Below are positions 18,314 through 31,356 of a DNA stretch of 33,834 nucleotides, one piece after another. Positions within the stretch are counted from its first letter, which is position 1, and each line of letters begins with the position of its first letter. The notes beneath the pieces are model-generated. The model was not told the origin of the DNA. It searched no databases and saw only the letters and a list, made by a program, of their open reading frames with translations. A program made the translations under genes and the position numbers. The stretch is from Saprospiraceae bacterium (GTDB taxonomy: Bacteria; Bacteroidota; Bacteroidia; Chitinophagales; Saprospiraceae), in contig JAHDFN010000017.1 of NCBI GenBank assembly GCA_020628145.1, positions 1 to 33,834 on the forward strand, given 5' to 3'.

Positions 18314-18338
18314 TTTTTTGTTGACTGTTTTCAGAAAG

Positions 18339-18397
18339 TGAAGTTGTTTGAAAAGTGGTTTGCAATCGAATTATTGAATCATTTTTAAACAACTTCA
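18339..18397 (-). repeat. 59-bp deletion derivative of the 166-bp palindromic repeat
   Basis: Read on the minus strand, this copy equals bases 27746-27787 joined to 27895-27911 of the long element, with one substitution (T to C) in 59 bases. The terminal inverted repeats TGAAGTTGTTT(G/A)AAAA are kept; the core hairpin is missing. The junction falls at ACCA, which occurs at both ends of the missing 107 bp (27784-27787 and 27891-27894), as expected for deletion between short direct repeats in a hairpin. It sits between two DUF4199 genes. Confidence 0.85.
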
Positions 18398-18419
18398 GTG
18401 TTAAAATCCTAATATACAT

Positions 18420-27587: not shown

Positions 27588-27609
27588 TGCAGTATCTATT
27601 CTTGATTCT

Positions 27610-27617
27610 CAAATATA
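27610..27617 (-). promoter_or_regulatory. -7 promoter box TATATTTG of the deacetylase gene
   Basis: An exact TAnnTTTG match on the minus strand, 22 nt before the ATG at 27587. No convincing -33 element. Confidence 0.4.
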
Positions 27618-27745
27618 TTTTAAAGTCCTTAGTTGAGTTGGATATTTGAAATTCATTATGCTCCAATTTCCAAACAGGTAATTACTAGACGAGATTTCTA
27701 TGCAAAACGCTGCTTTTCAATGAAGAAAAGTATGTACTTAACTAA

Positions 27746-27911
27746 TGAAGTTGTTTAAAAATGATTCAATAATTCGATTGCAAACCATTGACTCCTAAAT
27801 TCTTCAGCTATTTTTCGTCCCGTAGCTTTGGCTACGAAACTCAAAATCAGCTTCGACTTAGAAATCAAGCGATTACAATCGCTATTACCAACCACTTTTT
27901 AAACAACTTCA
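27746..27911. repeat. 166-bp imperfect palindromic repeat element (long copy)
   Basis: The ends are perfect 16-bp inverted repeats: TGAAGTTGTTTAAAAA (27746-27761) and its complement (27896-27911). The two 81-nt arms are equal in length around a TTTG loop at 27827-27830, flanked by CGTAGC and GCTACG. Between tip and centre the arms are related but imperfect, with a 1-nt offset over part of the length. The nested palindrome AGCGATT-AC-AATCGCT lies near 27868-27883. Non-coding. A 59-bp deletion copy is at 18339-18397, and a second family member is at 29867-30031. It resembles a MITE or palindromic intergenic repeat; no transposase is nearby. Confidence 0.85.
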
Positions 27912-27979
27912 ATATTTACGGGGCAATATTCCAAATGTTTCCACTTGGGAAATAAAGTCGCTCATCGAACCAATTTTAA

Positions 27980-27987
27980 TATCTTTG
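27980..27987 (+). promoter_or_regulatory. -7 promoter box TATCTTTG of gltX
   Basis: An exact TAnnTTTG match followed by CAT; it lies 61 nt before the gltX ATG at 28049, giving a normal leader. No -33 TTG is clear at the usual distance. Confidence 0.6.
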
Positions 27988-28048
27988 CATTTTTGAATGG
28001 AAAGGGACGAGAAATCGAAATCCCAATTATCAGATATAAAATTTGAAA

Positions 28049-29806
28049 ATGTCAAAACCCAGAGTGCGATTTGCTCCTAGCCCAACAGGTGCATTACATA
28101 TTGGTGGATTACGTACTGCACTATATAATTATCTGTTTGCGAGGAAAACAGGAGGTGCTTTTATCTTGAGAATTGAAGATACAGATCAAACCCGTTATGT
28201 TCCGGGGGCGGAAGACTATATATTGGAAGCTTTGGAATGGACTGGTTTGACATTGGATGAAAGTCCTAATGTCGGTGGGGATTGTGGCCCTTACCGTCAA
28301 TCGGAACGGAAAGAAATGTATGGACAATTCGGACACCGTTTGGTAGAAAACGGTTGGGCGTATTATGCTTTTGATACCGAAGAAGAATTGGAGGCCAAAC
28401 GGAATGAAATCGAAGCGAGCGGAGGGACATTTTCTTATAATGTAAAGACAAGGAGCAGTCTGAGGAATAGCCTTACCTTATCTGATGCCGAAGTGAGGGA
28501 TTTGTTGGATTCGGGAGCGGAATTCACCATCCGTTTGAAATGCCCAGCTGATGAAATCGTATATGTTGAAGATATTATCAGGGGTAGGGTGGAATTCCAA
28601 TCGGATTTATTGGATGATAAGGTCATGTTGAAAAGTGATGGGATGCCTACCTATCATTTGGCGAATGTCGTGGATGATTATCATATGAAAATAACACATG
28701 TCATCCGGGGAGAAGAATGGTTGCCGAGTACGGCACATCATGTTTTATTATACAGGGCTTTGGGCTGGGAGGATAAGATGCCCCAGTTTGCCCACTTGCC
28801 CCTGATTTTAAAACCTGCTCCGTCATCTTATATCAATAAGAAGAATGTGGATGTAATGACTGATAAATTCACATCGGAATTTTTCAAAAAGCATCCCGAT
28901 TATACATTTAAGAATAAAGATCAGGTACGACAAAGCATACGGGGTTTCCTTTTGGATGTGAATGAATTATCGAACCGTTTACAAATCAAACCGAAAGACA
29001 AGGAGGATAAAATCATTATCAAGGAATTTTTGAAAAGTACCCTTTTCGGGAAACTAAGTAAAAGGGACGGGGATCGTTTGGGCTTTCCCGTTTTTCCTTT
29101 AGAGTGGAACGGAGCAAATTCCGATGATTCTTTTACAGGATTCCGAGAAGTCGGATTCAATCCTGATGCATTATTGAATTTTCTGGTTTTCCTAGGCTGG
29201 AATCCGGGTACTGATCAGGAAATATTCAACATGGATGAATTGATTGATGCCTTTTCATTGGAAAGAATTGGGAAGTCGGGTGCGAGGTTCGATTATGGCA
29301 AAGCCAAGTGGTTCAACCAGCAATATCTTATCAATGGAAACGACGAGGAAATGGCTGAGGTACTCCGTCCGATGTTTGCGTCCAAAGGATGGGACGTGGG
29401 TGATGGAGAAATTGTAAAAGTAGCAGGTTTATTTAAGGAGCGGGTGGATTTCCTGAATCAGATTCCCGAAAAGGCAACATTCTTTTTTAGTGATGATTTC
29501 GATTATGATGAAAAGAATGCCCGTAAAAAATGGAAGTCCCAACATGCCGAAAAGAATTATGCCTTAATCGATGTTTTGGATACCACTTCCGATTTCTCTC
29601 CTGAAAATCTGGAAAAAATCATCAAGGGCTATATCGAATCGGAAGGACTGGGATTCGGCGATGTGATGGCTCCTTTGAGAATAGCTGTTTCAGGTGTCGG
29701 CGGAGGTCCTTCGCTTTTCGAAATCCTTTCCTTATTGGGAAGGGAGAAAACCGTCGAAAGGGTGAAAAAAGGTTATGCTGTTTTTGAAGCATTACAGTCC
29801 GTATAA
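28049..29806 (+). CDS. gltX: Glutamyl-tRNA synthetase with large insertion
   Basis: A 585-residue class I synthetase that charges tRNA-Glu. The ATG at 28049 (MSKPRVRFAPSPTG) is used; the in-frame TTG at 28043 is an unlikely alternative. The ATP-binding motif is PSPTGALHIGGLRTALYNY, and the KMSKS-like loop is GKLSKRDGDRLGFPVFPL at about 334-351. Between LILKP (252-256) and this loop lie about 77 extra residues (257-333, from APSSYINKK to EFLKSTLF), rich in Lys, Asp and Glu; most bacterial GluRS enzymes have only a short linker here, which explains the excess over the usual 470-510 residues. The insertion keeps the frame and is probably helical. The C-terminal anticodon-binding domain looks complete. 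Followed by a terminator and a palindromic repeat. Confidence 0.93.
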   Translation: MSKPRVRFAPSPTGALHIGGLRTALYNYLFARKTGGAFILRIEDTDQTRYVPGAEDYILEALEWTGLTLDESPNVGGDCGPYRQSERKEMYGQFGHRLVENGWAYYAFDTEEELEAKRNEIEASGGTFSYNVKTRSSLRNSLTLSDAEVRDLLDSGAEFTIRLKCPADEIVYVEDIIRGRVEFQSDLLDDKVMLKSDGMPTYHLANVVDDYHMKITHVIRGEEWLPSTAHHVLLYRALGWEDKMPQFAHLPLILKPAPSSYINKKNVDVMTDKFTSEFFKKHPDYTFKNKDQVRQSIRGFLLDVNELSNRLQIKPKDKEDKIIIKEFLKSTLFGKLSKRDGDRLGFPVFPLEWNGANSDDSFTGFREVGFNPDALLNFLVFLGWNPGTDQEIFNMDELIDAFSLERIGKSGARFDYGKAKWFNQQYLINGNDEEMAEVLRPMFASKGWDVGDGEIVKVAGLFKERVDFLNQIPEKATFFFSDDFDYDEKNARKKWKSQHAEKNYALIDVLDTTSDFSPENLEKIIKGYIESEGLGFGDVMAPLRIAVSGVGGGPSLFEILSLLGREKTVERVKKGYAVFEALQSV

Positions 29807-29812
29807 ATAAAA

Positions 29813-29839
29813 TGGACTCCGCTTTATCAGCGGAGTCCA
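29813..29839 (+). terminator. Terminator after gltX, between convergent genes
   Basis: TGGACTCCGCT (29813-29823) and AGCGGAGTCCA (29829-29839) form a perfect 11-bp stem with a 5-nt loop, 6 bp after the gltX stop. The plus strand lacks a T-run; the minus strand has TTTTATTT after the stem, so it may mainly protect gltX from aceA transcription. Confidence 0.65.
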
Positions 29840-29866
29840 ACCAAATCAAACCTTAACCGAGTTTAA

Positions 29867-30031
29867 TAGATGTTATCACGAAAAATTGATTATAGCCAAC
29901 CGGTTCTTTTGAAAATATGCCTGCGTTATTCCTCTCAACCGTAGCTATGGCTACGCTTTTCGACGAATGCCTTGCCTATTTCCAAAATTCCTCAGTTGTC
30001 TTACATAAAAAACATCTCGTGATAACATCTA
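29867..30031. repeat. 165-bp imperfect palindromic repeat element (second family member)
   Basis: Perfect 15-bp terminal inverted repeats TAGATGTTATCACGA (29867-29881) and complement (30017-30031). The near-central core CGTAGC-TATG-GCTACG (29940-29955) matches that of the repeat at 27746-27911 except for one loop base. The inner arms are inverted copies of each other: TTTTGAAAATATGCC on the left against TTTTGGAAATAGGC on the right, read on the minus strand. The terminal sequences differ from those of the first element, so this is a distinct subfamily of the same length. It lies in the convergent gap between gltX and aceA and has no coding capacity. Confidence 0.8.
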
Positions 30032-30075
30032 ATATTTATCACATCCGTTCTTATTGTAGGAGATGATACATTCGA

Positions 30076-31356
30076 TTAGTGGGCGAACTGTTCCTCTTCG
30101 GTACTTCCGGCCATAGCCGTCGTAGAAGAATTCCCTTGTTGTACCGTATTCTGAACGAAATCGAAATATTGTGTTCCAACAAAAGATTGGTGTTTCACGG
30201 CAGCGAACCCATCTTTGGCCAAAGCGAACTCACGCTCTTGCAATTCGGAATAACCGGCCATTCCTCTTTCCTTGTATGCTTTGGATATTTCGAACATGGA
30301 AGTGTTCAAAGCGTGGAATCCGGCCAATGTGATGAATTGGAATTTGAAGCCCATCTTAGCCAGTTCCTCCCTGAAGACCAACATTTCCTCACGGCTCAAT
30401 TTAGCCGCCCAGTTGAAAGAAGGAGAACAATTGTAAGCCAACATCTTTCCGGGATATTTTGCATGGATCGCTTCTGCGAATTGGCGTGCTTCATCCAAAT
30501 CGGGATGAGAAGTCTCCATCCACAACAAATCACAATAAGGTGCATAGGAAAGTCCTCTGTCTATTGCCTGGGGAACACCATTGGTCACTCTATAGAATCC
30601 TTCGGAGGTTCTGTCTCCCGTTACGAATCTCCTGTCTCTTTCATCAATGTCCGAAGTAAGAAGATCTGCGGCATCGGCATCCGTTCTGGCAATGATGACC
30701 GTAGGTACGCCCATTACATCCGAAGCCAAACGAGCGGCTACCAATTTATTAATGGCCTCTTGTGTAGGAACCAATACCTTTCCGCCCAAATGACCGCATT
30801 TCTTTGCGGAAGATAGTTGATCTTCCCAGTGTACACCCGAAGCACCCGCTTCGATCATTCCTTTCATCAATTCGAAGGCATTCAGATTACCTCCGAATCC
30901 TGCTTCTGCATCGGCAACGATAGGTACGAGATAATCGATATCCCCTTCTCCTGAAACGGACTGGATCTGATCCCTTCTCAATAAGGCGTTATTGATTCTT
31001 TTGACCACACTAGGTACTGAATCCGCAGGATAAAGGGATTGATCCGGATACATATGTCCGGCCAGATTTGCATCTGCGGCTACCTGCCATCCACTCAAGT
31101 ATATGGCTTCCAAACCGGCCATTACTTCCTGTATCGCTTGGTTTCCTGTCAATGCACCCAAGCCTGCGACATAATCCTGTGTGTTGAGTTTGTGCCATAA
31201 CTTCTTAGCACCCATTTTAGCCAATGTGTATTCTATATCCACACTACCTCTCAATTTCATTACATCTTCTGCAGAATAGGGTCTTTCTACTCCTTTCCAT
31301 CTAGGATTGTTTTCCCATTCGTTTTTCAGTTGCTGGATTCTGATTTCCTTGCTCAT
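30076..31356 (-). CDS. aceA: Isocitrate lyase
   Basis: A 426-residue enzyme that splits isocitrate into succinate and glyoxylate, the first step of the glyoxylate shunt. The signature loop is KKCGHLGGK (K185, K186, catalytic C187, G188, H189). Metal-binding acidic residues lie in [10 protein letters not shown] and near GVHWEDQ. Length is that of the short bacterial (E. coli-like) form. The gene follows aceB on the same strand after 69 bp, so both are probably on one mRNA. Convergent with gltX; the palindromic repeat 29867-30031 and the hairpin 29813-29839 lie downstream. It supports growth on acetate or fatty acids. Confidence 0.97.

Follow-up and report, generated by a model that had tools for sequence, protein, structure and literature searches.

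MITE-like element families with different ends and a common core hairpin in Saprospiraceae

The window elements and their families

The window, a stretch of 33,834 nucleotides from a draft genome of a Saprospiraceae bacterium (contig JAHDFN010000017.1), carries two long palindromes, which the original prediction placed at 29867-30031 and 27746-27911. Both are present there, the outermost base on each side being part of an AAT duplication. The first, referred to here as family A, is an element of 163 bp (29868..30030) flanked by the target duplication AAT at 29865..29867 and 30031..30033. Its limits were set by this duplication. Its terminal inverted repeats, AGATGTTATCACGA, occupy 29868..29881 (plus strand) and 30017..30030 (minus strand), and the core hairpin CGTAGC-TATG-GCTACG, located by a core pattern search and by covariation, lies at 29940..29955. 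The second, family B, covers 164 bp (27747..27910) between AAT duplications at 27744..27746 and 27911..27913. It was likewise delimited by its target duplication, and has the ends GAAGTTGTTTAAA. Its core, CGTAGC-TTTG-GCTACG, was found at 27821..27836 by the pattern search. The two therefore differ, as claimed, by 1 bp in length and by one base of the core loop (TATG vs TTTG). For both, the minus strand is the better-pairing one. A third element, mini-B, is a 57-bp coreless derivative of B on the minus strand (18340..18396), flanked by AGT at 18337-18339 and 18397-18399.

No open reading frame of at least 80 aa overlaps either of the two window palindromes. The A element sits between the 3' ends of two genes that we take, from their translations, to be gltX and the isocitrate lyase gene, while B sits between two divergent genes. 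A search of Rfam 15 with positions 27600-30200 (E <= 1) gave no match to the elements and one sub-threshold match outside them (29087-29112). The heptamer ATATTTA does follow both elements on the plus strand, as had been noted, but it consists of the duplication AAT plus ATTTA. It is not a common flank: on the right side it occurs in 2 of 120 copies (99 A-type and 21 B-type), only the two of the window, and two further A copies have it on the left side at the same offset. This flank is a coincidence.

The source genome (a 4.3-Mb draft in 340 contigs) contains at least 31 A-type copies of full length, of which 23 belong to the AGATG class and 8 have AAAGG ends, together with at least 8 full-length B copies. 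There are also many truncated copies, both at contig ends and within contigs. Of nine genomes from the genus, eight have A matches and all nine have B matches (E <= 0.001); copy numbers are lower bounds, since 40 candidates per genome were scored where more existed. The most first-look A candidates among the nine, 209, were observed in G008 (a 4.4-Mb draft), of which 40 were scored.

Exact 3-bp direct repeats flank 80/99 A-type and 13/21 B-type copies, an interrupted copy (L033) and a wrongly delimited one (L114) being counted as misses. When the flanks were shuffled 2000 times, such repeats appeared on average in 38.5 A-type copies and never in more than 51; for the B-type copies the average was 1.8 and the highest value 6. 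No duplication signal was detected at 2, 4, 5 or 6 bp in the same 99 and 21 copies. The exact duplications of A read ANT in 78 of 80 cases, and those of B are more varied. A TA target of the IS630 type, suggested by the outer bases TA..TA, was rejected because the 3-bp reading fits 80/99 copies and 2-bp flank agreement is limited to 2/99. Recombination systems acting on single strands, of the IS200/IS605 or integron attC type, generate no target duplication, and the 3-bp duplications of A and B speak against this assignment. One copy with AAAGG ends, in G002, is flanked on both sides by TAT and is embedded in a reading frame that matches DDE_Tnp_1 weakly, at 17.7 bits, below the cut-off of 23. 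When its flanks are joined, the frame runs 30 codons beyond the junction. These 30 codons presumably represent the missing part of an IS1182-like transposase. Short, noncoding, bounded by terminal inverted repeats, present at multiple sites and flanked by target-site duplications, A and B are MITE-like mobile elements of Saprospiraceae.

Two A copies of the source genome have a particular setting. L033 (G000:C280) is split by an unrelated element, also MITE-like and 134 bp long, whose ends are CTAAGTACAGGACAAAA and whose duplication, GTCTTACAT, measures 9 bp. L061 (G000:C1) lies within a terminator-like palindrome (gcatagaaa ... tttctatgc).

A-type copies rarely overlap called ORFs of at least 100 aa: 0/23 of the AGATG class and 0/8 of the AAAGG class in the source genome, and 1/66 in the other genomes. 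For B in the source genome the figure is 2/8. Copies of A are often close to stop codons, with 30 3' ends vs 8 5' ends of ORFs within 12 bp, a count based on crude ORF calling that includes overlaps to 30 bp and in which an insertion can itself end an ORF. According to the same crude ORF caller, the better-pairing strand shows no clear bias in orientation to neighboring genes, with 82 cases of the same sense and 58 of the opposite sense for A (p 0.05), and 14 and 15 for B. L033 and L114 were omitted from all context counts, and L159, L181, L176 and L167 also from those of neighbor orientation and ORF ends.

The common core and the different ends

The core is not a chance hairpin between unrelated sequences, an outcome that would have refuted the original prediction: a search of the 4.3-Mb genome gave 30 occurrences of the pattern CGTAGCTNTGGCTACG and 0 of its reversed control, and further copies with the core exist. 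Among 60 genomes, the 16-base pattern has 47 exact copies distributed over 6 of them, the reversed control giving 0 in all 60. Those of the source genome belong to 14 AGATG-class A, 8 AAAGG-class A and 8 B copies. Elsewhere, exact cores are carried by 12 A-type elements of G003, by one B and one A-type element of G007 and by one B element of G006. Two more lie between quite different ends, in single elements of family E (G005) and family D (G015, from another genus). All 47 are located within MITE-like elements and none stands alone, four of them (L011, L020, L104 and L108) ending at a contig end with one arm visible. Among named genomes the A core was matched in 24 contigs, all of them Saprospiraceae MAGs. 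Viral sequences gave one match to the A core, which is not an element as far as examined, and 0 matches to the B core.

Clustering by terminal sequence, the check that had been proposed, confirms that the core recurs with different ends (the A classes, B, D and E). The ends of A and B were described as unrelated, and indeed no likeness is detectable (z 1.45, an overstated value because related rows were shuffled independently). Family D is represented by a single copy seen in G015 (178 bp, ends GAGTCCACTCC, 6-bp duplication ATCTAT) and family E by a single copy seen in G005 (161 bp, ends ATACCCAAG, no clear duplication); their ends are unlike those of A and B. Other combinations occur. B' (G001) retains the ends of B together with its central 50 bp but has different arms. 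Family F (L162 of G005 and L169 of G008) combines a centre resembling that of B with the ends GAAGCTRTTTGA or nearly so, flanked by TTA on both sides in L169 and by TAG and TAA in L162.

Within A, the end classes are AGATG, AAAGG, AGACT and AGACG/A/C, and most copies have matching ends on the left and the right. The inner sequences of 27 representatives (<93% identity) of 97 A-type rows were used to build a tree, L033 and L114 being omitted from both the tree and the end-class table. The end classes require 6 changes on this tree, where the minimum is 3 and shuffled labels need 13.4. A single clade is rejected for AGATG (p 6e-24) and is not rejected for AAAGG (p 0.34). The classes thus largely track the inner sequence, which does not agree with a swapping of ends as modules within A. 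The A ends mostly drift along with the element and diverge gradually. End-specific mobilizers, the other suggestion made for these elements, fit this better than end swapping; they also fit the differing ends and the differing duplications, predominantly ANT in A, varied in B and of 6 bp in the one D copy.

The original prediction also proposed that the core is the recognized part. The corresponding model, in which the mobilizing enzyme reads the core and the ends are exchangeable, would explain why an identical core is found in elements with different ends. It would also accommodate a hairpin insert of G003 elements, which occupies one position in all three end classes concerned and has the same sequence in AAAGG and AGACT and a similar one in AGATG. 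However, B elements that lack the core and measure 55-58 bp occupy six sites in the source genome, four of them with exact 3-bp duplications, so the core is dispensable for B mobility. One internal junction is common to five of them and differs by one base in the sixth (L055); this is most simply explained by a single deletion whose product then transposed. Other junctions are found in additional short forms that also have duplications (L052, L082 and L178). Moreover, the stem CRTAGC..GCTAYG is retained in 25/27 A representatives but in 9/21 of the gathered B sequences, the pairing of the other 12 often being retained with other letters, as in B' (CGTAGT..ACTACG). The stem is also replaced in L053 and interrupted in L115, L167 and L227. 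Recognition of the core for mobility is therefore largely refuted for B, and we regard it as very improbable in general.

Several inserted palindromes were observed in individual copies. L115 (A, G005) and L227 (B, G002), members of different families, have a nearly identical extra palindrome, ATCCCGATAGCTATCGGGA, in the core loop. The B copy L167 (G006) has CCGCGTAACGCGG inserted in its core loop and CTGCCTGCGCAGGCAG in its right arm.

Pairing and strand bias

Covariation was analyzed in 22 of the 27 A representatives (five with inserts or a gap were omitted) and in 11 of the 21 gathered B/B' sequences. The terminal repeats were left out of the counts, since one enzyme reading both would make them covary. 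On the plus strand of A, both-side changes occur in 12/29 of the pairs inside the terminal repeats (50 cells vs 13.4 when shuffled). On the minus strand they occur in 17/38 inner pairs of A (72 cells vs 18.5) and 17/50 inner pairs of B (30 cells vs 9.1). Structures slid along the alignment gave at most 15 (A plus), 17 (A minus) and 8 (B minus) cells, a control over which the real structures are favored because they were derived from the same alignments. Each element as a whole forms a single long hairpin, and compensatory changes across the genus have preserved its pairing.

The two strands do not pair equally well. The consensus fold reaches -46.3 kcal/mol on the minus strand vs -27.3 on the plus strand for A, and -54.6 vs -18.9 for B. 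Single sequences were folded for the 27 A representatives and 18 of the 21 gathered B/B' sequences (L016, L181 and L224 were omitted). The minus strand is more stable in 45/45 of these and in 4/4 sequences of D, E and F, and its z is the stronger in 39/45, the exceptions being 4/27 A and 2/14 B. Raw strand energy was nevertheless discarded as proof of strand selection, as ordinary windows differ by similar amounts: in 7321 ordinary 170-nt windows of the same DNA, the energy difference between strands has a mean of 6.4 (sd 4.9), with several values above 15.

The nature of the mismatches is more informative on this point. An A.C mismatch on the plus strand is a G.U pair on the minus strand. In Watson-Crick-only folds, the 1x1 mismatches give A.C vs G.T ratios on the plus strand of 43:8 or 43:9 for A, 20:0 or 27:1 for B and 5:0 or 4:0 for B', the paired values corresponding to the two strands folded. 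Counted once per column pair, they become 16:3 for A (p 0.004) and 8:1 for B (p 0.04), though a single sequence underlies many of these 16 and 8 pairs and the counts are not independent, the copies being related. With loops to 3x3 counted on the folded minus strand, A gives 61:39 (p 0.035). The plus-strand consensus structure shows a weak bias, with 15 G.U vs 26 A.C cells (p 0.12), or 9 vs 18 without the terminal repeats (p 0.12). Conserved G.U pairs are found in B at columns 22-146 (11/11), 36-133 (9/11) and 74-91 (10/11). For the remaining families, the G.U:A.C ratios of single mismatches on the better strand are 2:0 (D), 0:1 (E), 1:0 (F1) and 1:1 (F2), which give no support on their own. 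Taken as moderate evidence from a small sample, the mismatch bias suggests that one strand is under selection, either as RNA or as single-stranded DNA. With wobble pairs, the pairing of an RNA could be maintained even as the DNA ceases to be a perfect, unstable palindrome.

These features could have arisen in ordinary MITEs, an explanation that we consider possible though rather unlikely. The palindrome would then be a leftover of inverted repeats and the paired changes the product of template switching from arm to arm, with no selected RNA or single-stranded DNA; the shared core would reflect descent or exchange between elements. A foldback structure is usual for bacterial MITEs, according to the pertinent part of PMC2229807, and local palindromes have been gained within A and B elements. 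Outside the core, the left arms of A and B (11 and 9 rows) are alike (0/300 column shuffles scored as high, z 3.0), as expected from descent, whereas their right arms show no resemblance (87/300 as high). Common descent of A and B is therefore only suggested, the likeness outside the core being confined to the left arm. Furthermore, copying between arms is strand-symmetric and leaves the excess of A.C over G.T in the column pairs of both families unexplained. It should also erase the conserved wobble positions.

Strand-biased mutation, for example cytosine deamination of an exposed strand, might instead have produced the G.U-type mismatches without selection. The base composition of the better-pairing strand agrees with this in part: in 33 aligned sequences C is less frequent than G (12.2% vs 19.4%), but T is not raised over A (32.3% vs 36.1%). 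At five variable wobble pairs of A (minus-strand columns 28-141, 35-137, 38-134, 50-122 and 51-120), the alternatives are mostly A-U/U-A rather than G-C (51 vs 6 cells), and the both-side changes would be left without explanation. We consider this origin improbable.

Mobilization, known systems and a possible role of the hairpin

A transposase acting on the A or B ends was searched for in the nine genomes of the genus. PF13359 gave matches in 0/9 genomes and PF13586 in 2/9, both under the cut-off. PF01609 gave 11 matches in 8/9 genomes. None of the 11 PF01609 and neither of the two PF13586 loci has A or B ends in the stretches checked, which extended to at most 1500 bases on each side and in several cases ended at contig ends. 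Seventeen of 64 places with A ends in the source genome are lone ends, the others lying in known copies. Inspection by eye revealed no second end or transposase at these, nor at the B ends inspected in four genomes (30 places in three of them, reversed control 4). As insertion sequences present in many copies are often missing from fragmented MAG assemblies, failure to find a transposase is weak evidence of absence.

Some transposase loci lie near such elements or resemble each other. An insertion sequence of the DDE_Tnp_1 type (L109:1283-2604, G000:C235) adjoins an AAAGG-class copy. It was rejected as the partner of A because its ends, like ATCAATAGT, are different. In L280 (G005), the inverted repeat around the DDE_Tnp_1 match is similar to that of L109. 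L137:1240-1620 (G004:C31) contains the remains of transposase-like reading frames, with a 13/14 match to the B end about 250 bases off and facing away; it is a weak lead and not a partner.

The ISL2 group of the IS5 family, suggested by the ANT target, was considered as a candidate source of the A mobilizer. An ANT rule for ISL2 was not found by literature search, and excerpts of PMC12730594 and PMC3196728 do not settle it. The ANT preference itself is found in A, but no IS5-type transposase was found between the same ends in the 9 genomes, and A is for this reason not assigned to the ISL2 group.

Literature searches found no report of this Saprospiraceae family. A MITE from the same phylum as the A/B host is reportedly present in Porphyromonas gingivalis. 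MITECca01 of Cardinium is likewise a MITE of this phylum. However, it derives from an IS982 element of that genome (excerpt of PMC9769881), a kind of parent not found for A and B. That transcripts of bacterial MITEs can form long stem-loops is well established (described in sections of PMC2229807, PMC10969869 and PMC3049150). In the same sections, neither one hairpin common to elements with unrelated ends nor a wobble strand bias is mentioned.

The BOX and RUP elements of Streptococcus pneumoniae are, like A and B, short, high-copy, intergenic and flanked by target duplications, and their terminal repeats also pair in an RNAalifold consensus fold. They differ in sequence and in host phylum. 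The proposed partner of RUP is IS630-Spn1, with a TA target, whereas A and B have a 3-bp target, ANT in A, and no partner found. No core common to families with different ends appears in the relevant parts of the two texts, while A, B, D and E share one (PMC3049150, PMC2229807). The Correia/NEMIS elements of Neisseria resemble A and B in length (~107 and 155 bp), in their long stem-loop and in an internal part of 50 bp that some forms have and others lack. However, this part carries an IHF site, whereas the A/B hairpin is found in other families too, and the ends differ (excerpt of PMC2229807). The ERIC elements of enterobacteria are ~127-bp palindromes whose influence on mRNA varies with their orientation and hence with the strand that is transcribed, another likeness. 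Their sequence and host are different, and a core common to other elements is not described in the section of PMC2229807 concerned. GTAG-tagged REPs are short palindromes with GTAG, often downstream of genes, but their GTAG tag is unpaired (excerpt of PMC3733652). The palindrome of such REPs measures 20-40 bp and occurs by itself. Membership in that group was rejected for the core, which has GTAG inside the stem and is always part of a larger element (0/47 copies standing alone).

Our preferred reading is the following. A transposase supplied in trans would act on the element ends and insert the element at ANT with a 3-bp duplication; A and B are separate families, each with its own ends and probably its own mobilizer. 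The selected form would most likely be a single strand, an RNA hairpin with the core as its apical stem-loop, and the RNA strand would be the one reading CGTAGC-CNNA-GCTACG in most A copies. As this stem-loop is common to elements with different ends, it may have a role other than end recognition, for example as a target of a host RNA-binding or processing factor. As a whole, we find it reasonably probable that these are trans-mobilized MITE families in which the hairpin is retained, selection acts on a single strand (RNA) and the core does not serve end recognition. A stronger version, in which MITE families depending on different transposases, with unrelated ends and target duplications of 3 or 6 bp, share one strand-specific RNA hairpin with an apical stem-loop that is usually CRUAGC-CNNA-GCUAYG, is put forward tentatively.

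The usual definition of a bacterial MITE rests on its ends. Elements with diverse ends and a common hairpin, in which compensatory and wobble changes on one strand preserve the pairing, would make the idea of a selected RNA testable, together with the question of what in the host reads the hairpin, and the coreless derivatives of the same genome offer a natural comparison. If the shared RNA hairpin is real, the RNA and not the ends would be the common feature of these elements, for instance as the substrate of one host factor that would protect, process or exploit it.
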